A stretch of DNA of 21,678 nt, from positions 1 through 21,678 of the IMG/VR virus record IMGVR_UViG_3300027996_001819; one strand, 5' to 3'. The stretch is from a virus. Below are positions 1,729 through 18,900 of this stretch, piece after piece (the first letter of the stretch is position 1; each line of letters starts with the position of its first letter). The translations under genes and the position numbers were made by a program. The notes beneath the pieces were generated by a model. The model did no database searches. It was given only the letters and a program-made list of their open reading frames with translations, and was not told the DNA's origin.

Positions 1729-3456
1729 CTATTTGTCCAATTCATATGTGAATGCGATATTAAACGAGTAGGAACCCTCTTTAGGTGTCCAACTCTCTGT
1801 TGGTGCAGTAATGAAATACTTCCTTACTCCCGGCTCGCCCTGAGGGCTAAGTTCCTGTAGAAGCGTAGCCAACTGACTCGCCGTAGGCTCTACCAGACTT
1901 GGTTTTTTCAGAATTAATGAACGTCTGTCTCCACTGTAGGGTATCTTGGTATAGTCCATTACTAGGTTGATAGCTACATCCCTACGGTACTCTGTTCTAC
2001 CACCAATGTTTTGCAGAATAGGGCCAGTTTGTCTTCCAAGTACTGGGATTACAGCAAATACATCTCCCGGATATGTATCATTGACTTGAATGCTCTCAGA
2101 AATTACACCGGACACAATATTAGTAGGGCGATTGTTGAAAGCTAGACTATACGAAATATCTCCAGTGTACTGGTTAGAGCCAATACTGATGGAGACCGGT
2201 TGTGAGTTCAGTTGTACGGCAACTAGATTATTAGCTCTGTGATAGATATCACTAGTCATCCCAAATTGACCATTGTTAGAAATGCTGTTGTACTTCTGTA
2301 GGGCGTGTGCGTACGCACCGCTGACAGCCACAACCTGTTGATCGCCAAGTTTGTCGGGGGCGACCTTGGATAAACCCTTAATAGTTCCATCTATAGAGAC
2401 ATTGATAAACGGATCTGAGTTAGATGTGGCCGTTGTCATACTGTAGTTCTCAGTAGAAGTCCCGCTACTAAGCAACCAGTTTTCGGTTACAGAATATGTA
2501 CCGTTAGCTACATTAATCTGTTCTGTTCTTACATGATTGAATCCACCATAGGAATCTACTAAGTTAACCGTTCCCGACCCTATGATACCAGCTACATTTG
2601 GATATGAGCCACTAGGATTGGTCGCCAAGCGACTCAAAACAAAATCACGAGCTTGTTGCCACGCTGGCTTATCAATGTCTCCATCGTAGTTGTAGACGGT
2701 CTTACCAGTAGCGTTGAGCGTGTGGGAAATACGATAAGAACGAGGGTTTTCTACAGATTCGCCCTGAGCATCGTCAGCCTCCAAGTTCCAGTCTTCACCA
2801 TAATCTTCAACAAAGTGTGTTCCACTACTGTTAAGGAGATCAACTAACTTTGTGTTGGTAGCTCTTAGGCTCCCGTTATTAGCGTATGTACCCTCTAGGT
2901 CTACGAACGCCTGATCGTCGTCGCCGGTGTTTTCTCTGAGTAAGTAGTCAGCCTCAAGTACAATAGTGTACGAACAGACGGTCACATAAGCACCCTCTGT
3001 AAAATCAATACTTACCACCTTAGGGTAGCATACTATGGTAGCTCCTGCGTCATCCAAAATATCAGATAACTCAACCCTTTGACCGTCTTGGGCAAACAGT
3101 CCACGTAGAGCACGCTGCTTGCTCAACATAGCGGAAGCGTTTTTGTTTCCCACTTGCTGACGCCACGGTTTTGGTCTGGAACTGATTGGCTCGTCATCAT
3201 ACAGCCCATAAGGACCAATGAAGTTCGAAGGAATATGTCCAGCGTTAAAGAAATCAAATGGTAGGTTGGTAGCTGGATTCAAGGCATATGGGGTTCCACG
3301 GTCTGCGATTAGGGTTCCTGTTAGGGTAATGGAGTACGTAATACCAAATACACCCTCCTTGTTCTTCAATACGTTCTCAGAGATCTGTATAAAGGGCGTG
3401 GGCCTTATAGTACAGTCCTGAGTATCGTCATTGGTATATCGTACTCTAATTGGCAT
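1729..3456 (-). CDS. Beta-rich putative tail/baseplate structural protein, 575 aa, unknown family
   Basis: A 575-residue protein starting MPIRVRYTNDDTQD, with no signal peptide or membrane helix. The sequence is dominated by alternating beta-strand patterns. Four segments have a similar strand signature: about residue 37 (FGITYSITLTG), about 313 (GTYSVTENWLLSSG), about 430 (YTGDISYSLAFN) and about 560 (GSYSFNIAFTYE). They suggest several related beta-sandwich units or one structural unit repeated. A short helical stretch, DKPAWQQARDFVLSRL, lies near residue 264. The ATG overlaps the TAA of the giant gene in TAATG (one shared base), and GGGGA at 3466-3462 lies 5 nt before it, so translation is coupled and the two products are probably needed together. 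The place in the operon and all-beta character fit a baseplate, tail-tip or fibre-attachment protein. I do not recognise a named family and assign no enzymatic role. Confidence 0.85.
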   Translation of the reverse strand: MPIRVRYTNDDTQDCTIRPTPFIQISENVLKNKEGVFGITYSITLTGTLIADRGTPYALNPATNLPFDFFNAGHIPSNFIGPYGLYDDEPISSRPKPWRQQVGNKNASAMLSKQRALRGLFAQDGQRVELSDILDDAGATIVCYPKVVSIDFTEGAYVTVCSYTIVLEADYLLRENTGDDDQAFVDLEGTYANNGSLRATNTKLVDLLNSSGTHFVEDYGEDWNLEADDAQGESVENPRSYRISHTLNATGKTVYNYDGDIDKPAWQQARDFVLSRLATNPSGSYPNVAGIIGSGTVNLVDSYGGFNHVRTEQINVANGTYSVTENWLLSSGTSTENYSMTTATSNSDPFINVSIDGTIKGLSKVAPDKLGDQQVVAVSGAYAHALQKYNSISNNGQFGMTSDIYHRANNLVAVQLNSQPVSISIGSNQYTGDISYSLAFNNRPTNIVSGVISESIQVNDTYPGDVFAVIPVLGRQTGPILQNIGGRTEYRRDVAINLVMDYTKIPYSGDRRSLILKKPSLVEPTASQLATLLQELSPQGEPGVRKYFITAPTESWTPKEGSYSFNIAFTYELDK

Positions 3457-6400
3457 TAGTATCCCCGTATTCTTAGGCTAAGAGAGTCTGTGGTCTGGTT
3501 ATTAGTCATGTTCAGGTTCAATATTCCTGAGTGCCCACTTGGTGCCTCAATGTTTAGATTCATTGTTCCACTAGGAGATCCAAGGACCGCAGACTGATAC
3601 AGATTCATTGTATTATACACATTTGCACTATCTGGACCGATTAGAGTCAGATTCATATCTCCAGAGTTATCTACCGCACGGCCAGAGGTCACCAGATTGA
3701 ACATTCCACTACTTGGCGTAGGTGCAAACAATGTTAAATCTACCTGTTCTACGTATGGACGATGAGCAACAAATCCCTTGGTTGATGGGTCAAACCCAGA
3801 AACCTCTAGGAAAATATCACCATTTGGATTACTGAAGATGATCCCGGATACTTGGTAAGATAGGGAATCGCCTGATATATTTTGGTAAACCCTAGTTTCC
3901 AAGCGGTCCGTAGCGTCACGGTCCTTCTTCTGTCCAAATACGTGAGCCTCGATCCAGCCGCCGCTATTAGGAATAGATGGCACTTGCCCCCTAAGCATAG
4001 CATCGAATGAATATCCAGCACCAGCATCTAGTAATCCACTAGTAGGATGATTACCACTAGTAGCCCAAGAGTGCCTTGGAGAACCCACCGCCATAACATA
4101 ATCACTATCACCACGACCAGCACGATCAACAGAAACAGAACTGCCAAACCTATCGTTCTCTGTGCCGCTAGTCGTAACAAAGAATCCTCCAAGTCCATCG
4201 TCCGTATATAAGGTTGGAACCCTATCATTATGTCCCTGAGCGTATAATTTCTCAGCATATATCCAAGACTGACCCCTGCTCTGGAAGTCAACTATTTCGT
4301 TGCGGTAATTGAATACGGCCCCGTTGTTGAGAACCATAGTCCCACTAGTGTTGCTGAACTGATCAACGCGAACCCCAGAGCTTCCAAGGTCATAGAAAAC
4401 ATGATTGGGAATATCGTACTCAGCATTGAAGCTCTTTCTTTGGAAGGCTGTGTTTAGTCCGTTTGGTTGTACAGCACCACTATATATGTGGCCGTGTATT
4501 GTTTCAAAATCATGATTAGGAGCACCAATAGCTATCATGTCACAATCGATAGAAACAGATACGCCAAAGTTATCAGACCTTTTCGCGAACTCAACTATAA
4601 AACTAGCATCCAAAATATCATGGTCGTCACGTTGTTGTTCTAAAGCTACAATTGGGCTTGGTGAGAAGTCAACAATACCCACATTTAAGCTGCTAGGCTT
4701 AATTTTCTGCTGGAATTCCCAGGGCAGGAATTCTGAGACCACATTTTCTCCACTTCCTGTTTTCTCGTATACGAACACAGCACCAGCACCACCGTCTTCG
4801 GCAATTCTTACTCCAGAGCGAGATGGGTCATTTTCAATTTCATGCCACTGTACGATACCACTAACACCACTAATAGCACCCTCGGTATAGTAAGCATTAA
4901 ATGGAGAACCCACAACCAGCTTATTATCACTCATGTCGATAGAATAACCAAACAAGTCACCTAAACATCCAGAGTAATATACGTCTAGGTCTAGGTAGTC
5001 AGTATTGGTAGCCTTCATTAGGTCATTAAGACCACCGCCGACCTTAGCGTCAGTGATGAAGTCTTTCTTGTTACCAGATTCTCCCATTAACTCTTCGTAG
5101 GTCTGTGGAGGATTGATATTTAAGAAGTCGCCACTAAATCTTGGGTATATGCCGTGAGTTCCAAGAGCGTCAGAAGTATAGAAACTCTCAACACGTTGTT
5201 TGATCTGTTCCGGACTCTTCAGTTCCGCTGGACGAGTCAGGGTTGAAGGGTCATACGTATCTTCATCGTCGTAGTAATTATCTAGACTCCCAACCACTCC
5301 AGCACCACCGTATAGTGGATCTTGTATGTTGCTAACTGCGTGACCACTAATAGCATGATACTTAGCCGCACTTCCACGTTCTGGTGCTCTCAATTTCTGA
5401 GAGAAGAACCAATTACGACCATTTACGTCTACGCTGTCAACATCTGTATAGATGTAATCATCCCCAAAGGAACCCAGTCCCGTAGTCACTACATCCAAAG
5501 AATCTGGATATAAACTACGAATAAACTCTTGGTTACCACTTAGAGTTTCCGCACGGTAATGAGCACATTGACCCTGTAGAAGTGTGGAGTCAGAGATAAC
5601 AATGATCTTTGAGCGTCTACGACCAGTTTGGAAGGATGAGAAGTTCTCAAATTCTTCAGCAGCAACCACGGGGCCGTCTTCAATAAGCTCGTCACCAAGA
5701 TATTCACACTGAGCACTAATAGCTGAGTTGCAGTAAATTTCACTCTTGTTGGACACTGGACGTGACACAGCAGGAACACTTCCACTTTCCAGAGGATTTA
5801 CTTCCCACCTACAGTTGTATTCCTCTACACCCGTTGGTACTTGACCACTCGTTGTAGTAATAACGGTTTCAATATCTATTGGAAGAGGACAGCCAGAGAT
5901 AGAGATCAGTCTAGGTGTAGTTGGTAGAACACCGTCAATCAGGTCTCCATGAGGGATGAATGTTCTCCACGGTGAGGTAGACAAGTTAATAGTGATCTTA
6001 CTGTCAATCGCCTTGAGATCGTATATACTTTGCGAAGGTGTTAGAACGGTCGTCTTAGACAAATCAATGTCCGAACCACATATACTGCCATCAATATCGG
6101 AGGTGAACAGTTCAGAGTCTTCTTCTCCAAGAGGGTCGTGTGTAGCACCAACAATAGTGCCGCAGATGTCAAACTTCTCAGACACTTTCTCAGATACCCA
6201 GTTTACAAACACGCGATAGCCAGAACCACTAACCGCTGGGAACTCAACGGTAGCATCTGCGTCAATCTTCCATTTATTTGTTGGGTAAACGGTGTATGGC
6301 TCAGTAACGTCGTCTTCCCACCAGATGATCTTTTCGTAGTTAGATCCACCAGACAGAGGAATGAACACGTCCTTGTTTTCGGAAAGTGTACTATCGCTGA

Positions 6401-9400
6401 AGTGTAGACCACTAAGGCTAGACGCAGCTTGGTAATTGGGGAATGTAAACGTATACCCATTGTCGCAACCACTAACACTATCCGTAGAGGTATTAATACT
6501 CTGGACATCAAGATCTGTAGGGTCGTAGCTCTTAATAATGTTTTCAGTAACAAAATACTCGCCAATATTTGGCATCAAGATTGGACGACTCGTTACACTC
6601 AGACCGCTACACAAGTAGTTGACATTGTCAGCAATTTGTTGTCTAGATGACTCCGAGGTGGCATTAAACGTGATGACTAATTTCTTATTCCCAAGATCCA
6701 TCCAATTTTGTAGTTCTTGTAATTCTGACGCAGACGGTTTACCAGATGGATTAGCTACCCACGCGAAGTCTACCAAATTGTTCAGATCTGTAGCTTCTTG
6801 GTTCTCATCAAAGGCACCACCATTGACAGAGAACTCAACGTTAAGTTTATCTCCAAGCCCATGATCTAAACCACTTTCATATGCGTCTGAGAGAGATGTA
6901 CGACCAGTGAATCCGTTAATCTGAATACCACGAGGTGCAGAGGTACAATCTTTACGCACCATATTGATGTAGAACTCAGTGTTCTTATCATCATTTTGTG
7001 TCGCCGCGTCTATACCGCGACTAGCATCGTCCTCTCCCCATTGGGAGCCGATAATGTAAACTCGTGAGTTGTTAAGATCGCCGTTGGTCTTACGGCCAGA
7101 TTCAACTAGACCCAAGATGGAATCTGGGTAGATGACCCTAGTTTCTATTCTCTCTTCATCCTCTGGGTAATATGACCTACCAACACCCTGTAGTAGACCG
7201 TCACGACCATTCAGGGAATCAGGGTCAAAGAAATCACCACTATAAGTGAAGGAATTGTACTCACCACTAACGCTAGAATCAACATCCTCTGAGATATTAA
7301 AGGATACTACATCTAGGTTATCTTCTGCGAACTTGCCACTAAGAGAGCCAGCCTGATGTACTTCCCACTTGTAAAGCGTACGATAGTCACAGTAGTATCC
7401 GGACGTAGCTGGCCTCAACCACGAACTAGGTGGTAGGTGTTCAGCAGTAGTAAGAATAGGTACGGGTTCCTGATTCACCTTAGTAAATAGGGGTGTGGGA
7501 GGATCGTCGCAATTTGGAGTAAAGTTACCAAACTGTAGAGGCCAGTTCTTCTTATATGTTACAACCTTACATGTGTTAGGAGTAGTCTTCAAGCACTGCT
7601 CAGTCCACTCAGCACGTAAGTCTCCACCGTGCTCCAGCGGGAACTCACAGCGAGAGTTAACGATTGGGGGTGGACTACCGTCGCAAGTAGCACCCTCCGG
7701 ACAACCCATTTCATCAGAATAGCCCGTAAGACTATCACGCTCTAGGTGCATACGGATATCACCAACACCCTTGGCGTAGTAATTATTCCGGCCAATGGTT
7801 GCACCAGTAGAGTAAGACGGAATCTTAGCCTTGGTAACATTGTACTTGTCAGCGTTCAGGTCGTCCTGAGAAACACAACCCTGCATAGAGTGTTCAATAC
7901 TCTTAGCCGCGTGGATTCTCATGCGAGACCCAAGTTTCTCAAGTACGTTATTTATGATACCATTGGAATCTGCGTACAAACCGTTTTCTTCCCAAGTTGG
8001 GTCATTACCAACTAGGACAAGGTTTCTATCTCCGAGAGCTAACCAGTTCTTGATGTTATCAATGATCTCATCGCTGGCAGAATCCAACTCTGGAGTCATG
8101 ATGAAAGCAAGACCAGCATCTTGTGGTATTTCTATTTCCGAGAAATCAGTACGACGCCAGTATTTTCCTTGGTAGTCTGAGCTTCCGTTGGCACCAGAAG
8201 CGAAGACCAAGTTCATAGTTTCGTAGTATCCAGCATCCCTCTCTGCTTTATGAGAAGAACGGTCAAGGTTACCAAACCTACCGAATTCAACTACTCCGCT
8301 ATGAGAGTGATACTTACGTGAAGCAAACATACGGACAGCACCAGCATTATGATGTGAAGCCCAACGCATCTTACCGTCGCCCCAAACATTCGAGTCTTCA
8401 AACTCGTTGAACGAGTCTGTTGGTGCTCCAAACGCCACAACGTCTCCATCGTCGTTTACTGCTGTACTCCATCCCAAACGAGATGTAGGAGCAAACGTCT
8501 TAGGTAGAAACTGACGTGTACCAATGTATGCAATATCTCCATAGCCATAAGAGTATGAAGGAGAGTATGACTGAGGTAGTACAGTCCAGAAGTTGATGTC
8601 ATTACGGAATTCAAACCGTTCGCTAGATGACAGGAAGTCGTATGTGGCTGTCTTAGCAGTAGCAACACCAGATAGTAATACGATTTGTGCGTAGTAGGAC
8701 TCGGCAGCGGTTTTGCTCTCAGCCTGACACCAAGCTAAAACGTTATCATAAACCCTCTGATCTTCATCAGCGTTTCTCTCAAAGACCCTACAGGAAACAC
8801 TGTTCCAAGGAGAGCCTACGGATACTATTTCGCCATTAGTACTGATAGCTACACTGTGACCGAAGCGGTCATTGTAAGTATTAGCATATGTCGCACCAAA
8901 TATATCAGCATTGTCCTCTTCCAGTTCAGCTATATCATTTGGAGATGTAATGACCTGAACACAGTTGAAGTTGTCACGTTCTTTTTCGAATATGTAAACT
9001 CGACCACCCGAAGCTGGTGGAACTTGGAACTCAGTAAGAATAGAACCGTGCGTATCTCCCCAGTCCTGCCCAACTCCGCTCGCGACAAAGTTGCGGTTGA
9101 GGGTCGAATTAGTGTATGTTGACGATAGTCTTCCGGAGTCGAACGTATTAGTAAGTAAAGCACTTGCCGTAGTAGCCCAATTTTCAGACTGACCAAATAC
9201 CTTGTTCAGGTGTCCACTTTGAGCTAGGTTTGTAGTTGGATCAAACACACCACTCTGAGATGAGTAAGCTAGATAGAAACTAGAGAACCTATCATAGAGA
9301 TTAATGGCGTTCCCACCAGTATCAGCATACTGTAGGGCACCAGCCGTAGATCCAGTCTGCTCTTGAAACATACCAACTATTGCTGGGATACCACTATACA

Positions 9401-12400
9401 GCGTATTTTGACCAGCGGGGAATGACTCAAACCACGCTTCCATTACGCCGCTATGCTGTTGATCTGAAATCACAGGGCGAGCAGCCGCAATCCAATCAGT
9501 TAGAGAGCCACTACCTCCTAGAAGCCCAGAACCAACATCTTCTAACAAGGCAAGGTCATCAAGTCTTGGAATATACCTATGGGTAAACCAGCTTGACTCA
9601 TCTGAAGGAACAACAGGATATTCCTTATTGGAATAGGTAAGTTGAAGAACAACTATCTTAGGATTGATCTCTGCGTACCATTCACTAGGTCCAGCGTTCC
9701 AAGGTGCTGAGAAGTATTTCCACAAGATATTGAAACGTGAAGCCGTAGACGCCACGGAAGCCAATTCAGATTTGTTATAATCAAACAGGTCGGTAAATAT
9801 TAGGCCAGCAGTTGGGATGCCAGAAGTTTCAATGTCTGTGAATTCCCTGTTCCACTTAGCACGGGGAGCACCCACAACAACAACCTCACGGTCACCGCTT
9901 ACTGCCATGTCTAATGAGCTACCAAACTCACGACCCTCTTGACCAATCTGCCACTTGTTTCCAGATATTGAGAACTGATCAAATGTTAACAGGTTTTCAG
10001 CAGTACGCTGAATATAATCTTTTCTGAATCCAGTTGGAAGGGTCAGTGGTTCAATCAAGTTCCAAGAGGCACTCTTACCAGCTACATCGGTGCCTCGACG
10101 GTATAGGAATACAGAGCCAGCACCAGATACATCCACCATGCCGGGATCAGCATTTCCAAAAGCGTCTACTCGATTCTGGTCAAACTCTGGAATAGTCATA
10201 TGAGGAGCGGAGATAGCCATCAGGTCACCCTTGACAGATACCTGACTTCCATATTCGTCGCCAGCACTTCTACCAGAAGCTACAATGAATGGAGAATCAA
10301 CTGTCAGGTTAGCAGATGGAGCCACACTGGCGGCATCGTCACCTATAAACTTAACACCAGAGAATACCAAGTCTTGATCACAGTCTTCAGTACAGCAATC
10401 CCAATCAGTACCGCACATACCATAACCCCATTCCTCAAACGTTGGAGGAACAGAGATAGGGTCAGTTGATCCGGTTTTTATGGTCATGGTAGCGTTATAA
10501 GCTACAGATGGCATGAGTTCCGTGTATTTTCTCAATCCGTAGTAATTACCGCTGTATCCCAAGTCCCCACTAAAGTTAATAGCACCAGAGTTGGTGTATG
10601 TCTCTGTGGCTCGGAATATGCCTCCATCGTTGCATGTGGCCGCACGCCACGTTGTACAATCCGTCCTGAGAATAGGATCAACAGCCTTGCTTGGGCTATT
10701 ACCAGTACATGATCCATACCCAGTTAAATCTACACCGCGAATTTCATTGGTGACATCTAGGGTTGCCACATGATCATCTGTTAGCTCAATACCAGTACCG
10801 TAGTTGTTGTTGTACCACAAGCCAAATGCTGATCCAAAGTTACTGCTATAATTAGCAGTTACCAGATTCATGGTTCCGCTAGATAATGCTTCAACCGCAG
10901 GATTATGCAAGTAAAGAGGAACTTCAACGTTCATAACATTTGGAGCGTTAATGAACATTGGCATAGAACCAACAAAGCGACGTTTGGTAACTGTGTTGCC
11001 GCCGAGTAGGTTTAGATTGACATCTCCACTAGCGTTGCTCGTGGTCAGATCTTGAATTGAGTTCCATAGAGTTAGAGGTGTAGTAGACTGAAGTCCGGTG
11101 CTTCCACTTGAAGACGCAAACGTGTTAAGTCTTAGGACTGGACCTGTAGGAGTTGTGGCTACATCCGCATTAAACATAGTAAGCGGCATACCAAAGAAGG
11201 TACCACTACCACCCAATGTAGTCAGAGGATCAAAGTCATCAGAGGTGTCGTGTCTACCTAGAATCTCCGGTAGTGCTAGAGACATAGAATTAGATAGACT
11301 TGAAGGAATCTCACCACTAATATTTAGGGTGAACGTTTCCACTCCCGATTGATGAGGGGTGAATAGCGGAAGCGTTTCCGTAGAAACAAAAGCACCCTGA
11401 AGATTAAGCGTGAACCCACTAGGTGCCGTCGCAAATACATCGTACGGCAGTGGAATATTCATAGTAAGAGGTAGGGTTCCACTGCTATCCTGTGGAAATC
11501 CACCAACATTCAGATTAAGCTGAGATTCTGATGGGAAGGCACCGCTAGCATACAGGTTCATAGTGCCAGATACGTCAACATCGCAAACGTTCGCATCTTC
11601 CATTCTTACATGTGAGGAATGTAATTCTATCTTAGAAGAATACGCTGGGCCTGATGGATAAACGAGGTCGTATTGTACGAACATATCGTTCACATCATCG
11701 GAGAAATATCTCTCCGAGAAATCTTTGACCCTTGGTTCTGACGGAAATAATGACCAAGCCTCTGTCTCATCGCAGATATCATCGTAGGTAAATGATGACT
11801 CTAGTTTTTGAATACAACCAGAGGGTTTCAGATAGTGAGACTTGCGGTTTACCAGTCCCCAGTTTGGCTCATCTGGAGTCCAGTAAGGGTCTTGATTCTT
11901 TGTGTATAGGCTGACAATCATACGTGGGCCAGATGGAAGTACATCTCCACAACCAGACCACGAAATACCCATTCCCGTTTTGTGAGATACCACACTCTCT
12001 ACAACAATAGCGTTTTCTGAGAATGTATATCCACAAGGTATATTCTTTGTAATACGACGGTTAACGGCGTAGAAGTTGTTGGGAATATCACTTAGGTGGA
12101 ACCGTAAGAAATCATTCTCTAATTGCGTATGATACGATACTCCACTATCAATAGCAGAAGGAGTAGGAAGGTCCACAGAATTAGAATAACTGGTGCCGCT
12201 ATGTTGAATATCAAAGATGATATGTTCTGTATTCGGACGGAGCTGCCATTGGTCATAACCCATACCAAATTGACAGTGCTCAAAAGCACCCAAAGCCCAA
12301 TCGTTGTATGTGTCTTCATTAACTCTATCCCATAATTTGTAGCGGTCGTTAGTATACGACTCGCTCGGATCAAAGAATTTAACCCGACTGTTTTCTAGGA

Positions 12401-15400
12401 ATTTTTCTGCCGTTACACCTTTATATGTCTTGTCTGCGTTGGACTCTACAATGTTGGTACCAGACCCATAAAGCGTTTTAACTCCAGAACTCCAAGATGA
12501 AATTCCGAATTCACTAACGAGCATGTTCATACCAACGCCAGAACCCGCAGACCATCCCAGTGTAAGGTCAGCATTTGTATCTGCCTTACGGAACGGTACG
12601 GAACTAGCACGTAGTACATTGAAAGGTGATAGAAATTCATTATCAGTGTAGAGTTTAAGACCACTACTCTGATGATCGTTGTACGTCAAGATGGCATTCA
12701 GCGGGAATTGGTACCCACTGTAAGGCACGGTGTCGGCAATAGAGATGATGTTGTTAGACGTATCTCTAGCGTATCCACATAGATACCCACCGCTATAACC
12801 AAGGGCGAAATCTAATTGAGACGGCGTGTCCCACTTAGAACAAATAACGCCACTTTGGAACAGGTCATACCCAACACCGGAAACGGTTGGGTCTGGCGTA
12901 AATCGAACGAAAACGGAAAATCCGCTAGCAGCACTAACATTCCCAAAGTTGATATTTTGCGTGTCTTGTGAGATTCTTACTGAACGATCAAAAGCGTCAG
13001 CAATCTTACCATAGAGAGGATTACCCACAAAATTAACCGCACCACTAGCTAATGATGTCCAGTCAGAAGTTGTGTAACTACCACTATATCCGGGTAACTG
13101 ACTTTGGAATAGGGTTCCGCTGGAATATCTCCAACCAACGTTGTGGTAGACTTCTGGCGTGGTAGCAAACAAACCACTAACCGTACCTAGGCCACTACCA
13201 AGCTCTGTGGATTGAACGTAGAGTCCATCAACATTATCAAAGCGGTAGTATCCAGATAGGAATGGGTAATCAATTGTTGGGTTCTCAAATCCAAAGCCGA
13301 ACATATCAGGGTCGTATGGGCCGCAAACCGTACCCTCTGACCCACGCCATCTTCTAGCGTAGTTACTCTTTATTGTACCATCCGAAGTATAAGAATGGAT
13401 TCCACTGATTGAGGATAGAGGACCGTAACCACTACCAGCATTTAGGATATCGTCTGTAGACCCCATAGATGTTGGGTATAGGGCCGCTTCCGATCTACCG
13501 TCTTGGACCTTCCCAAACTTTTTTCCGCCCTGAGTGAAGAGATTAAGGGCGTTTGAGGGTGCGTACCTTACACATAGTTCAGTGTAAGCAATGGAAGCAC
13601 CGCTAGGAAGTGGGAAGATATCTAGATAGATCTTCTCTAGGTATGAACTCATTGAGTAGTCTTGAGATAACCCAAGGCGTACATCATCATCCAGAATCTG
13701 AAGAGGAACTTCATACCACGCAAATTCTGTACCACTGACTACGGGGTATTGAGTAAGTGAATAATGGTCACCACCAGAATTACCGCTAGCTTCCCAGTAG
13801 TCTTCATGTTCAGATAAGCTACCACCGGCCACTATGTAATCATCATCGTCAGAATAAAACCCTGAGATAACAGGGTGAGATCCAACACTCCCAACGTATT
13901 GATCGTTTAGGAATACGCCCGATGGATTTTGTAGGAAACCGCCAGACGGAGAGGTGTCATGCAGGAGCTTATCTTCGCTGTAGCCAACAACATCAAGTAC
14001 ATAGTCTCTAGTTCCAAACGCTTTCTTAGCTAGAACTTTAAGTGTAATGGTGTCTACAGTGTAGAATATTGAGTCGTTTTTATGAACATTTTCCCTACGG
14101 TTTTCTGTGTTGAAAGCACCGCTGGGACTGAACCACATATTATTAGTAGACTGATCAAACTGATAGTTGAATGCTCCTTGAGTAATTTCGTCTACATTAG
14201 TGGAACATTCTCCAAAACGCAGCATCAGCTTCCCTGAGTCAGCAACCCCACCCCCAGAAGCAGACTGAACTTTGATGAATCTTTGTGCTGTCGGAACCCC
14301 AAGGATTCTTACTAAGTCTTGAGCACCACATATATCTTCATTTGTAACACCTAGTGGGCTAGCAGCAGAATCAACATCGTCAACCCAAACAGTGTCTACG
14401 GACGGATAAATAGTAGTGTCAAAATCATATTGAGGCATGAATTGGGCACGTATACATCTCTCTAGTCTTCTACCAGTAGATGGAACTTCCATGTAAGCTG
14501 GGAAGTAATCTTCGCGTCTAGGGCCGAATCCACCACTATTACAGATCTCAATTGCGGAAATTTTAAAACCGTTTGTGGGATTCAGAAACTTGACCTCTTG
14601 GGTCGATAGAGGAGCACCGTCTAGAGCCAAATAGTTGTTACCACTACCATCTGTCAGGATATCTGGTAGGATATAGTTTTCTTCAAACCCTTTACTGAAA
14701 CCCTCTGTAAACGCATCGTCAAGAGATACAGCACGAACACTGAAGTGCAACTGATAACCGCTAACCATTTGCATGTGCGGTTTTGTTCTTCTATCCCAGT
14801 CATAATCATCTATCGCATTAGATTCAGGAAGTGATGAATATGTGGAGAACTTAGATTGATCTACAGTGGAGTCGCCCTTCAGTGATATATCATTATACTT
14901 GACAATCAGATTTCCAGATGGGTCCAGCAGTTGAATATTGTAAACAGTGTAGAGAGGAGGTACGCTAGATTCATAGTTCTCTAACGGTGCAGCTACCCTC
15001 ATTCTTAGGGCTGTGTAGTCTGGACGTACGTTTAGATTAGTAAGATCGCACTTATACTGAAATAGACCCTCTGTATGAACCGTATCAGGGTTTATGTAAG
15101 AGGTTACGTCATCACTAAGGGTCACGGAGTCACCGCCATCCTTAAGGATGCCCTCATATACACCCTCATCAATGAAGCTGTACAGACCTGAAGTTTCAGC
15201 TAGTGGACCTACAAATGAACCAAACCCAGAAGCTACGGGTAAGTCAGCCTGAGGATATAGTTTTTCTTGGCACTTGAAATCACCAAACTCACCAGCAACC
15301 TTATCTATGTCTAAGACATTAAGATTACCCTCAAGTGTGAGTAGTTCACTAAGAGCATAGTCTACCTTTATACCGTCATCCAGTTCACCCTCTGCGTCTA

Positions 15401-15917
15401 GCGATATGTCGATTGGGATGAAGGATGTAAGTCTACTCTCTACCTCAGACAAGAACGTAAGGGTCGCCTCCATAGCTGCTGCCGTGGAGATGATAGGGGC
15501 CGTCTCTGGACACGAACCGTCTAACCTGATAGCATCTAATGCCTCAATCTGACGGTCCACAGCGTCTGTGCTGGATGTGTACTGAAGAGTAACGTCACAA
15601 CCATTAATAGATACCACTGAGTAGTAGTAGGTTTGATAGTTGGCAGAGATCTCTGCTACCCACGTATCATCCAAACAAGTACAGTCGCATCCATTCAGCG
15701 TCACAGTGTAAAGAGGGCCAGAGCCAACAACAGCCGAAACAGTGTCCATACAGAATTCAGCTACAGGTGGAGATGTAAGCTCACCCTCAGCCTGTATGGT
15801 GGTACCCATATTAGCTTCAATGATCATGTGAGCAGTAAACTCACCCCCAGCGGAACACGAAGCGTCCGTTGCTTTGAGGCAGCTACATTCTAAAGCTACG
15901 TGATGTTCACCTGACAT
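3456..15917 (-). CDS. Giant multidomain phage tail protein (4153 aa) with LamG-like domain, split FG-GAP propeller and SG/MNL repeats
   Basis: Probable distal tail or host-contact protein, about 450 kDa. Start: ATG at 15917, AGGA at 15930-15927, 15 nt after the tape measure stop. Order of parts by eye: Cys-rich N-terminus (Cys 11, 13, 21, 56, 77, 79, 81, 107); unrecognised beta-rich region to about 880; LamG-like domain 885-1150; SG-x-MNL repeats 1440-1695; a CCTEDC-type Cys cluster near 1830; FG-GAP blades 1-4 at 1885-2503; two DUF4350/GldG-like modules at about 2598-2990 and 3045-3466; blades 5-7 at 3652-3950; SG-x-MNL repeats 4070-4153. About 130 Ser-Gly dipeptides occur. No signal peptide or clear membrane segment is seen. 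FG-GAP and LamG folds usually bind proteins or glycans; an adhesin or tail-tip scaffold is inferred. A link to the VrlC-like large structural proteins of marine myoviruses is possible but unchecked. The frame is uninterrupted, so coding status is certain. Confidence 0.92.
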   Translation of the reverse strand: MSGEHHVALECSCLKATDASCSAGGEFTAHMIIEANMGTTIQAEGELTSPPVAEFCMDTVSAVVGSGPLYTVTLNGCDCTCLDDTWVAEISANYQTYYYSVVSINGCDVTLQYTSSTDAVDRQIEALDAIRLDGSCPETAPIISTAAAMEATLTFLSEVESRLTSFIPIDISLDAEGELDDGIKVDYALSELLTLEGNLNVLDIDKVAGEFGDFKCQEKLYPQADLPVASGFGSFVGPLAETSGLYSFIDEGVYEGILKDGGDSVTLSDDVTSYINPDTVHTEGLFQYKCDLTNLNVRPDYTALRMRVAAPLENYESSVPPLYTVYNIQLLDPSGNLIVKYNDISLKGDSTVDQSKFSTYSSLPESNAIDDYDWDRRTKPHMQMVSGYQLHFSVRAVSLDDAFTEGFSKGFEENYILPDILTDGSGNNYLALDGAPLSTQEVKFLNPTNGFKISAIEICNSGGFGPRREDYFPAYMEVPSTGRRLERCIRAQFMPQYDFDTTIYPSVDTVWVDDVDSAASPLGVTNEDICGAQDLVRILGVPTAQRFIKVQSASGGGVADSGKLMLRFGECSTNVDEITQGAFNYQFDQSTNNMWFSPSGAFNTENRRENVHKNDSIFYTVDTITLKVLAKKAFGTRDYVLDVVGYSEDKLLHDTSPSGGFLQNPSGVFLNDQYVGSVGSHPVISGFYSDDDDYIVAGGSLSEHEDYWEASGNSGGDHYSLTQYPVVSGTEFAWYEVPLQILDDDVRLGLSQDYSMSSYLEKIYLDIFPLPSGASIAYTELCVRYAPSNALNLFTQGGKKFGKVQDGRSEAALYPTSMGSTDDILNAGSGYGPLSSISGIHSYTSDGTIKSNYARRWRGSEGTVCGPYDPDMFGFGFENPTIDYPFLSGYYRFDNVDGLYVQSTELGSGLGTVSGLFATTPEVYHNVGWRYSSGTLFQSQLPGYSGSYTTSDWTSLASGAVNFVGNPLYGKIADAFDRSVRISQDTQNINFGNVSAASGFSVFVRFTPDPTVSGVGYDLFQSGVICSKWDTPSQLDFALGYSGGYLCGYARDTSNNIISIADTVPYSGYQFPLNAILTYNDHQSSGLKLYTDNEFLSPFNVLRASSVPFRKADTNADLTLGWSAGSGVGMNMLVSEFGISSWSSGVKTLYGSGTNIVESNADKTYKGVTAEKFLENSRVKFFDPSESYTNDRYKLWDRVNEDTYNDWALGAFEHCQFGMGYDQWQLRPNTEHIIFDIQHSGTSYSNSVDLPTPSAIDSGVSYHTQLENDFLRFHLSDIPNNFYAVNRRITKNIPCGYTFSENAIVVESVVSHKTGMGISWSGCGDVLPSGPRMIVSLYTKNQDPYWTPDEPNWGLVNRKSHYLKPSGCIQKLESSFTYDDICDETEAWSLFPSEPRVKDFSERYFSDDVNDMFVQYDLVYPSGPAYSSKIELHSSHVRMEDANVCDVDVSGTMNLYASGAFPSESQLNLNVGGFPQDSSGTLPLTMNIPLPYDVFATAPSGFTLNLQGAFVSTETLPLFTPHQSGVETFTLNISGEIPSSLSNSMSLALPEILGRHDTSDDFDPLTTLGGSGTFFGMPLTMFNADVATTPTGPVLRLNTFASSSGSTGLQSTTPLTLWNSIQDLTTSNASGDVNLNLLGGNTVTKRRFVGSMPMFINAPNVMNVEVPLYLHNPAVEALSSGTMNLVTANYSSNFGSAFGLWYNNNYGTGIELTDDHVATLDVTNEIRGVDLTGYGSCTGNSPSKAVDPILRTDCTTWRAATCNDGGIFRATETYTNSGAINFSGDLGYSGNYYGLRKYTELMPSVAYNATMTIKTGSTDPISVPPTFEEWGYGMCGTDWDCCTEDCDQDLVFSGVKFIGDDAASVAPSANLTVDSPFIVASGRSAGDEYGSQVSVKGDLMAISAPHMTIPEFDQNRVDAFGNADPGMVDVSGAGSVFLYRRGTDVAGKSASWNLIEPLTLPTGFRKDYIQRTAENLLTFDQFSISGNKWQIGQEGREFGSSLDMAVSGDREVVVVGAPRAKWNREFTDIETSGIPTAGLIFTDLFDYNKSELASVASTASRFNILWKYFSAPWNAGPSEWYAEINPKIVVLQLTYSNKEYPVVPSDESSWFTHRYIPRLDDLALLEDVGSGLLGGSGSLTDWIAAARPVISDQQHSGVMEAWFESFPAGQNTLYSGIPAIVGMFQEQTGSTAGALQYADTGGNAINLYDRFSSFYLAYSSQSGVFDPTTNLAQSGHLNKVFGQSENWATTASALLTNTFDSGRLSSTYTNSTLNRNFVASGVGQDWGDTHGSILTEFQVPPASGGRVYIFEKERDNFNCVQVITSPNDIAELEEDNADIFGATYANTYNDRFGHSVAISTNGEIVSVGSPWNSVSCRVFERNADEDQRVYDNVLAWCQAESKTAAESYYAQIVLLSGVATAKTATYDFLSSSERFEFRNDINFWTVLPQSYSPSYSYGYGDIAYIGTRQFLPKTFAPTSRLGWSTAVNDDGDVVAFGAPTDSFNEFEDSNVWGDGKMRWASHHNAGAVRMFASRKYHSHSGVVEFGRFGNLDRSSHKAERDAGYYETMNLVFASGANGSSDYQGKYWRRTDFSEIEIPQDAGLAFIMTPELDSASDEIIDNIKNWLALGDRNLVLVGNDPTWEENGLYADSNGIINNVLEKLGSRMRIHAAKSIEHSMQGCVSQDDLNADKYNVTKAKIPSYSTGATIGRNNYYAKGVGDIRMHLERDSLTGYSDEMGCPEGATCDGSPPPIVNSRCEFPLEHGGDLRAEWTEQCLKTTPNTCKVVTYKKNWPLQFGNFTPNCDDPPTPLFTKVNQEPVPILTTAEHLPPSSWLRPATSGYYCDYRTLYKWEVHQAGSLSGKFAEDNLDVVSFNISEDVDSSVSGEYNSFTYSGDFFDPDSLNGRDGLLQGVGRSYYPEDEERIETRVIYPDSILGLVESGRKTNGDLNNSRVYIIGSQWGEDDASRGIDAATQNDDKNTEFYINMVRKDCTSAPRGIQINGFTGRTSLSDAYESGLDHGLGDKLNVEFSVNGGAFDENQEATDLNNLVDFAWVANPSGKPSASELQELQNWMDLGNKKLVITFNATSESSRQQIADNVNYLCSGLSVTSRPILMPNIGEYFVTENIIKSYDPTDLDVQSINTSTDSVSGCDNGYTFTFPNYQAASSLSGLHFSDSTLSENKDVFIPLSGGSNYEKIIWWEDDVTEPYTVYPTNKWKIDADATVEFPAVSGSGYRVFVNWVSEKVSEKFDICGTIVGATHDPLGEEDSELFTSDIDGSICGSDIDLSKTTVLTPSQSIYDLKAIDSKITINLSTSPWRTFIPHGDLIDGVLPTTPRLISISGCPLPIDIETVITTTSGQVPTGVEEYNCRWEVNPLESGSVPAVSRPVSNKSEIYCNSAISAQCEYLGDELIEDGPVVAAEEFENFSSFQTGRRRSKIIVISDSTLLQGQCAHYRAETLSGNQEFIRSLYPDSLDVVTTGLGSFGDDYIYTDVDSVDVNGRNWFFSQKLRAPERGSAAKYHAISGHAVSNIQDPLYGGAGVVGSLDNYYDDEDTYDPSTLTRPAELKSPEQIKQRVESFYTSDALGTHGIYPRFSGDFLNINPPQTYEELMGESGNKKDFITDAKVGGGLNDLMKATNTDYLDLDVYYSGCLGDLFGYSIDMSDNKLVVGSPFNAYYTEGAISGVSGIVQWHEIENDPSRSGVRIAEDGGAGAVFVYEKTGSGENVVSEFLPWEFQQKIKPSSLNVGIVDFSPSPIVALEQQRDDHDILDASFIVEFAKRSDNFGVSVSIDCDMIAIGAPNHDFETIHGHIYSGAVQPNGLNTAFQRKSFNAEYDIPNHVFYDLGSSGVRVDQFSNTSGTMVLNNGAVFNYRNEIVDFQSRGQSWIYAEKLYAQGHNDRVPTLYTDDGLGGFFVTTSGTENDRFGSSVSVDRAGRGDSDYVMAVGSPRHSWATSGNHPTSGLLDAGAGYSFDAMLRGQVPSIPNSGGWIEAHVFGQKKDRDATDRLETRVYQNISGDSLSYQVSGIIFSNPNGDIFLEVSGFDPSTKGFVAHRPYVEQVDLTLFAPTPSSGMFNLVTSGRAVDNSGDMNLTLIGPDSANVYNTMNLYQSAVLGSPSGTMNLNIEAPSGHSGILNLNMTNNQTTDSLSLRIRGY
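3459..3707 (-). repeat. C-terminal SG-x-MNL repeats of the giant protein
   Basis: About residues 4071-4153 hold five units spaced 13-20 residues apart: SSGMFNLVTSG, SGDMNLTLIG, VYNTMNLYQS, SGTMNLNIEA and SGILNLNMTN, then SLSLRIRGY and the stop. Same type as the internal block near residue 1450-1690. A C-terminal beta-solenoid or a self-association or attachment segment is inferred. Confidence 0.75.
3462..3466 (-). promoter_or_regulatory. Ribosome binding site (GGGGA) of the 575-aa gene, with TAATG stop/start overlap
   Basis: GGGGA lies 5 nt before the ATG at 3456, inside the last codons of the giant gene. The giant stop TAA (3458-3456) shares its last base with the ATG. This arrangement allows a terminating ribosome to restart at once and supports the chosen start. 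Confidence 0.75.
4066..4962 (-). repeat. FG-GAP-type blades 5-7 of the giant protein
   Basis: Three further copies: blade 5 at 4962-4881 (LFGYSIDMSDNKLVVGSPF), blade 6 at 4582-4504 (NFGVSVSIDCDMIAIGAPNH), blade 7 at 4159-4066 (RFGSSVSVD, then YVMAVGSPRH with a longer loop). Linking strands are GAVFVYEKTG, SWIYAEKLY and WIEAHVFGQKK. With blades 1-4 the total is seven. Confidence 0.75.
5520..6783 (-). other. DUF4350/GldG-like module, copy B, in the giant protein
   Basis: About residues 3045-3466. The first half is VDFAWVANPSGKPSASELQ then NWMDLGNKKLVITFN; the second half is RRRSKIIVISDSTLLQG followed by GNQEFIRSLYP. Order and spacing parallel copy A (about 390 versus 354 residues between halves), and both inserts carry a Cys plus WEV segment (YKWEV in A, CRWEV in B) before the second half. 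A tandem duplication is the simplest reading. Confidence 0.45.
6944..8125 (-). other. DUF4350/GldG-like module, copy A, in the giant protein
   Basis: About residues 2598-2990. The first half, AGLAFIMTPELDSASDEI then NWLALGDRNLVLVGND, has the pattern 'hydrophobic strand, P, acidic helix, W at helix end, G, hydrophobic strand' of DUF4350/ABC_transp_aux domains. The second half, NSRVYIIGSQWGED followed by NTEFYINMV, matches their closing 'RVVVVGDS ... NRDFFLN' element. Between them sits a Cys-rich insert with eight or so cysteines. The family call is by eye and could be wrong. Confidence 0.45.
8404..10263 (-). repeat. FG-GAP-type blades 1-4 of the giant protein
   Basis: Four copies of a Y/F/L-G-x-S-hydrophobic ... 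G-A/S-P motif: blade 1 at 10263-10199 (EYGSQVSVKGDLMAISAPHM), blade 2 at 9935-9851 (FGSSLDMAVSGDREVVVVGA, then P), blade 3 at 8875-8803 (RFGHSVAISTNGEIVSVGSP), blade 4 at 8489-8404 (RLGWSTAVNDDGDVVAFGAP). After each comes an aromatic strand of the G-x-V-Y-x-F type (AGSVFLYRR, GRVYIFEKE, GAVRMFASR), as in FG-GAP_2 propellers. About 325 residues are inserted between blades 2 and 3. Confidence 0.75.
10849..11577 (-). repeat. Internal SG-x-MNL beta-repeat block of the giant protein
   Basis: About residues 1447-1690. Short degenerate units, roughly 13-25 residues apart, contain Ser-Gly followed by an alternating strand ending in N-L: for example SGTMNLYASG, ESQLNLNVGG, SGTLPLTMNIPL, SGFTLNLQG, FTLNISGE, SGDVNLNLLGG and SGTMNLVTAN. 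The pattern suggests a beta-solenoid or stacked hairpin spacer. A related block closes the protein. Confidence 0.7.
12475..13262 (-). other. LamG-like (concanavalin fold) domain in the giant protein
   Basis: About residues 885-1148. It opens with SGYYRFDNVDG, like the first strand of LamG_3-type domains, and continues through IADAFDRSVRISQDTQNINF, then ASGFSVFVRFTPD, LDFALGYSGGYLCGYARD, ILTYNDHQSSGLKLYTDNEF and MLVSEFGISSW. This strand order (framework strand, ligand-face strand, 'label with ornament length' strand, closing orientation strand) is what LamG/pentraxin-like domains show. Such domains usually bind glycans or proteins. Assignment is by pattern recognition. Confidence 0.65.
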
Positions 15918-15932: not shown

Positions 15933-18900
15933 TTAAGCGAGTACCCCGCCCTTGCGTGTCAAATCACCACTACTGTTAAATTTGGACCTACCTATTTCTT
16001 TTCCAACTTCTGCTAACAACTCGTCCTTAATGTTTTGCTTCATAGACTCTAAGAAGCTACCGTTTACTAGGTTTACATTTACATTTGTGGTGTCCAGTTT
16101 AACGCTAAAGTTAGTGTTTGCCAGTTTGTCTACAGCACTAGAAAAATCAGAAAATACATTTCTAAGTGCTGGTATAGCATCTGTAAGCATGTTGCTAGAC
16201 CCCTCAACTGGGCCTCCACCATTACGACGTGCTCTACCTCCACCACGCATATAACCGGGACCACTTGCTCCTCCACCAGAGTTCATGGCTCTTAACATCT
16301 GTAAATTATTACCACGCTGAACTGCTGAACGATTTACCACAAACTCACCCGGTGTCAGCATAGCAGGAACAGTGTCAGTACCACGGGGCACAAACATTCC
16401 GTTGTTAGCATAGACCGTTCCACCCCTAGCAAGTGGCTGACCCTGATTTATTCTAGAGGTCTCGTTGAGTTTGTTTTTGAAAGTAACGTCTGTAGCGATG
16501 ATAGTAGCCTTATTAATAGCAATCTCAGACACATCAAATTGGGCACCTTGTCCAGCTAAATCACCAAGCACCCCAGCTAGCTCTCTACCCTCAGCCTTGA
16601 ACGCTTCTTGCTCGGGAGTTGTACCAGACAAAGCACCGTTTCCTGTAATCCCGAACCTTTTGAGGGTTTCATCTTCCGCAGAACGTAGTTGTTTGTCAGA
16701 CAACCCTTGCCCCTCCAAACTCTTGAATCCAGCACCAAGTGCAGATCCAGAGAACAGACTAGTAAGTCCAGATGAGCCAGATCTCAGGGCCGCACCAGCA
16801 CCAGCCGCAGCTTGACCCTTAATAAACCCTTGAACATCCCCACTAATGAGTTTCTCAAGAGAACTCTTCTCTTCTCTATTCTTAGCTTGAACAATGGTAA
16901 TCTCTTCTTTGAGAAGTGCTATTCTCTGTTTTGTGAAAGTTATAAGTGCTTCATTAGCACGTTTAGCCTCTGGACGTTGATCCTTTTGATCACCCTCAGG
17001 ACCAGCGAAGATACCAGCACCTCCAACAGCAGAACGCCCAGCAATGTCTTGAACAAACGCACCTTGTTGTGTGTTGAAAGTTCCAGAAATATTTGTCGAA
17101 GCACGCCTAATGTCATCAGCACTACCAGTTCTTAGATTAGCACCAAGACCACCTAATTTACCAATATTGTTGAACTGAGCAAGTCTAGCTTGAGTTTGCT
17201 GTTGAGTTGTAAGTCTCTTACCCCCAAACTCTGCGAATGACTTGCCAGCTTCAATCTGTGTGTCGATTGCTGTATTAAGGGACTCTGCCGCTGTAGCCTC
17301 AATTTTCTCACGCTCTTGATACAAACCTATCATCTTGCCGTTGTGAGCGGCTATTATTTTACCAGACTCAAACAGACCGGCGGTAAGTTTTTTAGTTTGT
17401 GAAGCTATGCCCTCTTGTAATACTTTGAAGTCTATAGCTTTACCCGTGTCGAGTTTAGACACTTGGTCTGATATAGCAGCGTTCAGTGCGTCTGTAGTTG
17501 CTTCATCAGCATTCTTAGGAATAAGATCTTTTAACGCTTTTGTAATTGTCGTTTTATCATTCTCATTACCCTTGAGGTTTAAACCTTCTAGCGTCCCCCC
17601 TACGCCCTGATTGAAGTCAGCCGCACCCCTCGCCACATTTGCTTGATTAGTAATAGACTCTCTTAAAGCTGGGTCTGCACCAACAGCACTATCTAGAAGT
17701 GCCGATTCAACCGTCTTGATAGCTGTAGTAGTGTCAGCCCCAATGGTATTCTGAGCCGCCTCTAGTTCTGCCATAGCTATGGCGACGGTGTTAGAACCAG
17801 TCTTTAAACCAGCGGTAAAACCATCTACAGCGTTAGCCGCAAGACTAAAAGCTGAGGTTACTTTCAGGTTGTCAAAATTAGCTTTGGTTAGAAGTTCTTG
17901 TGCGATCCTAGCAGCCTCGATGACTTTGATCTGTAATAATAGACGTTCGGATAAACCACCGTTACGAGCAGATAGTTTTTTAGCAGACTGTTTTAACTCA
18001 TCTATAGACGCCCCTGATTCAGCAAACTTATTAATAACATCAGATGCGATAGCCTCAGTACTAGCTAAAGCATTTGTTCTCTCTGCACCAGTAAGATCAT
18101 TCGCTTCATCCGTAGCTACTGATAATTCTTTACCAATACTTGAGGAGATCCCTGCGAAGTCTATTTTTCCTGACTTCTTTTGATTTGTTAGGTCAGTAAG
18201 TCCAGCTTTAACCTTGACATCTGCAGCACTTTTAGCACTTTGGAACTCCGCCCTATCAATATTTTTTTGTCTTCTTTTTCCAGATTCTTCAAAAGCTCCC
18301 CCTTTTTCGATCCCTGTTGTTGCAGCCTCATGTGTTAGGGCCGCACCGAACCCTAGGGGACCAAGTGCCAAACTTCCGATAAGTTTTCCGGGTTTCTCTT
18401 TCGCCATCTTTCCCGCGACCGAAGCAAAATTACCAATATTTTCCGTGATACCTGCAAGAGAAAACTGCTCTCCAAAACCCTCTGCTTGTGCCTGTCTACC
18501 ACCCTGATTAGCAGCAGTACCTGCATCTCCAGATTTAATAGCCTCTTCTTTAGCTTTTTGAGCCATGTCAGCTATTAAACCCGTAATAGCAGTGCCTATA
18601 GCGTTGAAACCCGTCACGGCTACGGCAGCTAGACCAGCAAATTTCCCTATCCCCTTACCGAGTTGTTTCATTCCACCACTAGAAGACTTCTTAGCCGCCT
18701 TACCAGACTTCGTTACTTCTTTGGTATATCCGGCCACCTCTCTACTAGCTTTTTTAGTTTTCTTAGCGGCTTCTTTTTTAGGGGGGATGCTCTTCTTTTC
18801 CGCCACCGTCATCTCCTCAATTTCTTTCTCTAGGAGGCGGGCGGCTTCAGCATTTTTCTTGATAGCTTTTTCGAGATTTTTCTTAGCTTCTTCAGCCGCT

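Follow-up and report, generated by a model that had tools for sequence, protein, structure and literature searches.

A giant protein of uncultured phages with a probable integrin-alpha-type propeller split within its fourth blade

FG-GAP propellers, domains inserted into them (such as integrin alphaI, PMC3192720) and FG-GAP proteins of viruses are already known. The integrin alpha propeller with alphaI (e.g. alphaM, PDB 7usm and 7p2d) has seven FG-GAP blades and bears inserted domains in its loops. In the available text of PMC3192720, alphaI is located between blades 2 and 3, and bacterial integrin-type FG-GAP propellers are described as having seven full-length motifs per protein. Among viruses, gp108 of Sinorhizobium phage Phosso (PV764938) and other FG-GAP proteins (e.g. 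A0A6J5S3H5) display the FG-GAP_2-like order FG, GAP, GAVxVY and W..xQK[IL]. Phosso gp108 (locus L236, PV764938.1 58845-72380), annotated as hypothetical, is a very long FG-GAP-like array with glycine-rich and LamG-like interruptions. The window analysed here, an IMG/VR virus record of 21,678 bases, encodes a protein, P0001, with repeats of the same order.

Gene context and relatives of P0001

All evident genes of the window were on the minus strand. Residue r of P0001 corresponds to position 15917-3(r-1).

3456..15917, minus: P0001, bearer of the split propeller (ORF, 4153 aa)
15933..21677, minus: tape measure protein gene, upstream of P0001, context (PHROG 4211, E 4e-14; conserved synteny)
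1729..3456, minus: gene of a 575-aa protein, conserved downstream neighbour of P0001, context (synteny)

Downstream of P0001, proteins of 575, 180 and at least 394 aa are encoded in this order, and the succession of tape measure, giant protein, 575-aa homologue and 394-aa homologue recurred in most loci. Short repeats of the SGTMNLxxxG type were observed on both sides of the propeller, at P0001 residues ~1448-1690 (about 10848-11576) and C-terminally at ~4068-4135 (3513-3716).

Scanning of viral contigs and genome contigs yielded 69 distinct sequences in which six or more blades were recognised. A complete ordered set of seven was present in 61, and the remainder were mostly cut by the end of the locus or had a divergent blade 1. 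All 61 had four blades followed by three, the interval from blade 4 to blade 5 being 1071-1282 residues; a search for relatives with a short insert found none. When the window protein was used in tblastn against 50,697 annotated phage records, neither a match nor an insert-bearing relative was obtained; with a divergent relative as the query, the sole match in annotated phage records was the FG-GAP protein of phage Phosso. Several relatives (L106, L116, L123, L127, L130, L131, L133, L144 and L197) encode the N-terminal ~1300-1770 residues as a gene of their own, and some of these relatives have overlapping reading frames at the junction. The propeller halves and the insert stay in one gene even there.

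The three genome-contig matches (L219, L220 and L221) were contigs filed under SAR202 and Verrucomicrobiales MAGs; they had phage gene order and are probably phage sequence binned with a bacterium. The phage group of P0001 is uncultured, without close cultured members. A related contig of 172,984 bases carried genes for ribonucleotide reductase, DNA polymerase, terminase, RIIA and tail fibre or spike-like proteins. The contractile sheath family PF04984 had no match in 15 contigs, with positive controls, whereas the search for T4 Gp23 was uninformative, since the control genomes also gave no match. The gene content and the missing sheath match fit a large phage with a non-contractile tail. At L075:3159-8079, the DNA polymerase is encoded by two open frames separated by a gap, the first and the second corresponding to consecutive portions of a single PHROG profile.

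Seven blades and the split of blade 4

In a Pfam profile search, FG-GAP_2 (PF14312) matched P0001 with 69.4 bits against a curated cut-off of 23 (E 2.9e-19), and all 37 members of sequence set A5 matched this profile. For the older FG-GAP family (PF01839), the window record gave no match at E 1e-3. FG motifs were located at residues 1883 (YG), 1998, 2352, 2481 (LG), 3656, 3784 and 3924, forming a group of four at 1883-2499 and a group of three at 3656-3950. After each motif came [GS][AS]P and then a G-x-V-x-x-F/Y strand. Six of the seven motifs conformed to a strict regular expression, for which 0.5 matches were expected; a count of six was not attained in any of 2000 shuffles. A blade HMM trained on the window and 12 relatives gave exactly seven matches of 15-37 bits, the next best being -3 bits, which indicates that there is no eighth blade. 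The count and the grouping given by the annotation at 4066-10263, corresponding to residues 1886-3951, were thus borne out. The calcium motif DxDxDG was absent from the strand 1-2 loops of all blades when the turns were read directly (KGD, SGDRE, TNGE, DDGD, DNK, DCD and GRGDSD). PDB sequence searches returned nothing significant.

10035..10292, minus: blade 1, residues ~1876-1961 (motif, HMM; strand 4 'SWNLIEPLTLP' at 1951)
9858..9950, minus: blade 2 strands 1-2, residues ~1990-2020 (motif, HMM, AF2)
8937..9008, minus: blade 2 strands 3-4, residues ~2304-2327 (AF2, strand-4 profile)
8493..8885, minus: blade 3, with a helical excursion between strands 3 and 4, residues ~2345-2475 (motif, HMM, AF2)
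8313..8492, minus: blade 4 strands 1-3, residues ~2476-2535 (motif, HMM, L028 model and alignment)
5382..5414, minus: blade 4 strand 4 'NWFFSQKLRAP', beyond the insert, residues 3502-3512 (strand-4 profiles; predicted strand at L028 model 964-970)
4983..5381, minus: linker from blade 4 to blade 5, about 130-140 residues, partly helical (L028 model)
4692..4973, minus: blade 5, residues ~3649-3742 (motif, HMM, L028 model)
4236..4589, minus: blade 6, residues ~3777-3894 (motif, HMM, strand-4 profile)
3927..4169, minus: blade 7, residues ~3917-3997 (motif, HMM)

The AF2 model of window residues 1735-2575, made with 37 sequences, covered blades 1-4 and displayed confidently predicted blades in a partial propeller. 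Its best PDB matches were integrin alphaM and alphaX (Foldseek E 1.5e-6 and 7e-6), and comparison with an integrin alpha chain gave Z 17.7 and an rmsd of 3.1 Å over 218 residues.

Strand 4 of the blades follows the pattern W/F-x-x-x-Q-K-L/I-x-x-P. A profile of this strand was trained on blades 1, 2, 5 and 6; among all held-out sites of P0001, residue 3502 scored highest (18.9; reached by none of 3000 shuffles). In an independent profile from the repeats of Phosso, a distant FG-GAP_2 phage protein, 3502 came second among 4143 positions, flanked in the ranking by the known strands of blades 6 and 5. Taken alone, this score was modest: 2% of shuffles attained it somewhere. The best strand-4 site was at the equivalent place in 57 of 67 relatives. 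A second AF2 model, comprising blade 4, the insert and blade 5 of relative L028, with window positions mapped by alignment, had a pLDDT of 85 and a strand exactly at the equivalent of 3502. The pTM of the AF2 models was 0.60-0.64. No propeller chain was among the best matches listed for the L028 model, the list being occupied by sandwich and alpha/beta domains.

With strand 4 of blade 4 at 3502, past the insert, the main insert falls between strands 3 and 4 of that blade. The insertion of about 1150 residues had been described as domains looped out between blades 4 and 5; the distance from the blade 4 GAP to the blade 5 FG is indeed ~1157 residues and the domains are looped out, but structurally most of them, ~965 residues (about 2536-3500), lie inside blade 4, and a linker of ~140 residues makes up the rest. 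Another candidate strand, 'DFKCQEKLYPQ' (residues 213-223, 15249-15281), was considered as a strand that might close blade 7 from the N-terminal end. This site is conserved and scored high with the first strand-4 profile; it was not adopted because its score with the Phosso profile was low (0.4, rank 81) and several relatives encode this region in a gene separate from that of the propeller.

Because the strands of blade 4 come from both sides of the insert, the two halves are assigned to one ring, and this is the strongest argument for it. The separation of the blade groups by ~1150 residues would also suit two structures, a closed four-bladed propeller of blades 1-4 and an independent three-blade unit of blades 5-7. 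Such an arrangement is very improbable: the model of blades 1-4 matched integrin and WD40 propellers of at least seven blades, no four-bladed propeller was recognisable among the best 50 entries, strand 4 of blade 4 adjoins blade 5 beyond the insert, and the count of four plus three is constant in 61 relatives. Tail proteins are usually oligomeric, and the ring could close only in an oligomer, blades 1-4 of one chain being completed by blades 5-7 of its neighbour in the tail tip. The sequence evidence would then be unchanged; since blade 4 itself is split, however, the chains would need to exchange within a single blade, and a closed monomer is simpler, so that a domain swap appears improbable. 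The preferred reading is one ring within one chain, in agreement with the earlier proposal of a single split propeller and supported by the presence of seven blades only, the invariant layout, the single gene, the integrin-like model of blades 1-4 and the strand at 3502. Each model covers part of the ring; it is very probable that the seven blades close, with blade 5 packed against blade 4 and blade 7 against blade 1. As a whole, residues ~1876-3997 are best explained as one integrin-alpha-type FG-GAP_2 propeller with nested inserts and a role at the tail tip, and we consider this explanation probable.

Domains inserted in blades 4 and 2

Domain folds of the blade 4 insert were measured on the L028 model and then mapped onto the window by alignment.

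7878..8297, minus: ThuA/IFT52-GIFT-like (DUF4350-like) alpha/beta domain, first part, residues ~2541-2680 (L028 fold, profile)
7314..7760, minus: beta-rich stretch with a long strand, residues ~2720-2868, approximate (L028 model)
7047..7313, minus: CBM-like beta-sandwich, first part, residues ~2869-2957, approximate (L028 fold match)
6498..6920, minus: second copy of the alpha/beta unit, residues ~3000-3140 (hhalign to copy 1; model strands and helices)
5880..6350, minus: CBM-like beta-sandwich, second part, residues ~3190-3346, approximate (L028 model)
5670..5879, minus: beta-rich stretch, return part with a long strand, residues ~3347-3416 (L028 model)
5466..5669, minus: ThuA/IFT52-like domain, second part ('SKIIVISDST...NQEFIRSLYP'), residues ~3417-3484 (L028 fold)
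9009..9857, minus: alpha/beta domain of ~285 residues between strands 2 and 3 of blade 2, residues ~2021-2303 (AF2, family alignment)

The outer inserted domain of the L028 model had a GATase1-like fold and matched IFT52 GIFT (Z 15.2) and ThuA (Z 12.5). These matches spanned model residues 81-945 with about 200 residues aligned, which means that the ThuA/IFT52-like domain is itself interrupted. The DUF4350 profile gave 22.4 bits against a cut-off of 30.4 for the window fragment, and its best E among relatives was 1.5e-7. A beta-sandwich, the fold expected of a CBM, was also present, with Z 9-11 (maximum 11.4) to CBM16, CBM35, CBM61 and CDTb RBD1; the fold is common, and a Z of about 11 for a jelly-roll is no proof of sugar binding. 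The sandwich, with 118-130 residues aligned over model residues 405-820, is interrupted too. The second alpha/beta copy lies between the two sandwich parts and matched copy 1 in hhalign (P 8.3e-10). Two strands of ~28 residues flank the sandwich in the model and may form a stalk. Read from these alignment ranges, the insert looks nested, the ThuA/IFT52-like domain containing the CBM-like sandwich and the sandwich containing the second alpha/beta copy.

The domain in blade 2 is a further insert, unmentioned in the first-pass annotation. In the AF2 model it consisted of alternating strands and helices, with pLDDT mostly 80-94. Foldseek of the model of blades 1-4 favoured alphaI-containing integrins. 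In several relatives, DxSxS stands at the end of a strand of this insert; the window has EQTGS there. Pfam VWA had no match in the blade 2 insert in sequence set A5; hhalign against vWA gave P 0.1, the best local match being the DxSxS segment, and a doubled vWA profile, used as a permutation test, gave no significant support in hhalign. It seems unlikely, though conceivable, that P0001 represents a phage-specific tail-tip family in which an integrin-like propeller scaffolds adhesion domains nested at several levels and the blade 2 insert is a vWA domain, perhaps circularly permuted, with a MIDAS. If this were true, the vWA-bearing protein would be an independent counterpart of the alphaI integrin head.

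Proposed role and comparison with known propellers

Since the gene directly follows the tape measure gene, a site in the tail tip or baseplate is most likely, and from this position and the CBM-like fold we infer a role in host adhesion. The propeller would act as a rigid hub displaying the inserted domains outward, and the CBM-like part is predicted to bind a glycan of the host surface. Location in the virion together with glycan binding is somewhat favoured. The same architecture could instead serve as a structural spacer or an enzyme, as there are enzymes among the ThuA and GATase1-like relatives; no conserved cysteine nucleophile was seen at 'LVLVGNDP' of the ThuA-like domain, however, and the CBM-like fold and the tail-gene context also speak against this alternative, which we regard as possible but not probable. 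A propeller in host recognition would have a likeness in the receptor-binding protein of S. aureus phage phi11, which reportedly has five blades, belongs to a different family and has no nested insert.

Compared with Phosso gp108, whose repeats are many and mostly contiguous, P0001 probably has one seven-blade ring split four plus three. Its outer inserted domain shares the fold of ThuA, IFT52 GIFT and DUF4350 domains but differs from them: the window sequence stays under the Pfam cut-off, several hundred residues interrupt the domain, and it is duplicated. Like the bacterial FG-GAP propellers of PMC3192720, P0001 has seven repeats in a prokaryote-associated protein; the available text of that paper describes no within-blade insert of ~1000 residues and makes no mention of phage. 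A nested within-blade insert conserved across a phage family was not found described in the literature searched. P0001 shows to what extent a propeller can be interrupted: in a single blade, ~965 residues with inserts within inserts separate strand 3 from strand 4, an arrangement retained by every complete relative found. It also supplies domain boundaries open to testing for a very large protein family from phages that lack close cultured members.

With the integrin alpha propeller, P0001 shares the seven FG-GAP blades and the bearing of inserted domains in propeller loops, and no evidence of shared descent past the repeat family was found. P0001 differs in being of the FG-GAP_2 type without DxDxDG calcium loops, and in place of an alphaI domain between two blades it has ~285 aa inside blade 2 and ~965 aa inside blade 4. 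The arrangement offers a parallel to the integrin alpha head, where ligand binding has passed to an inserted domain.
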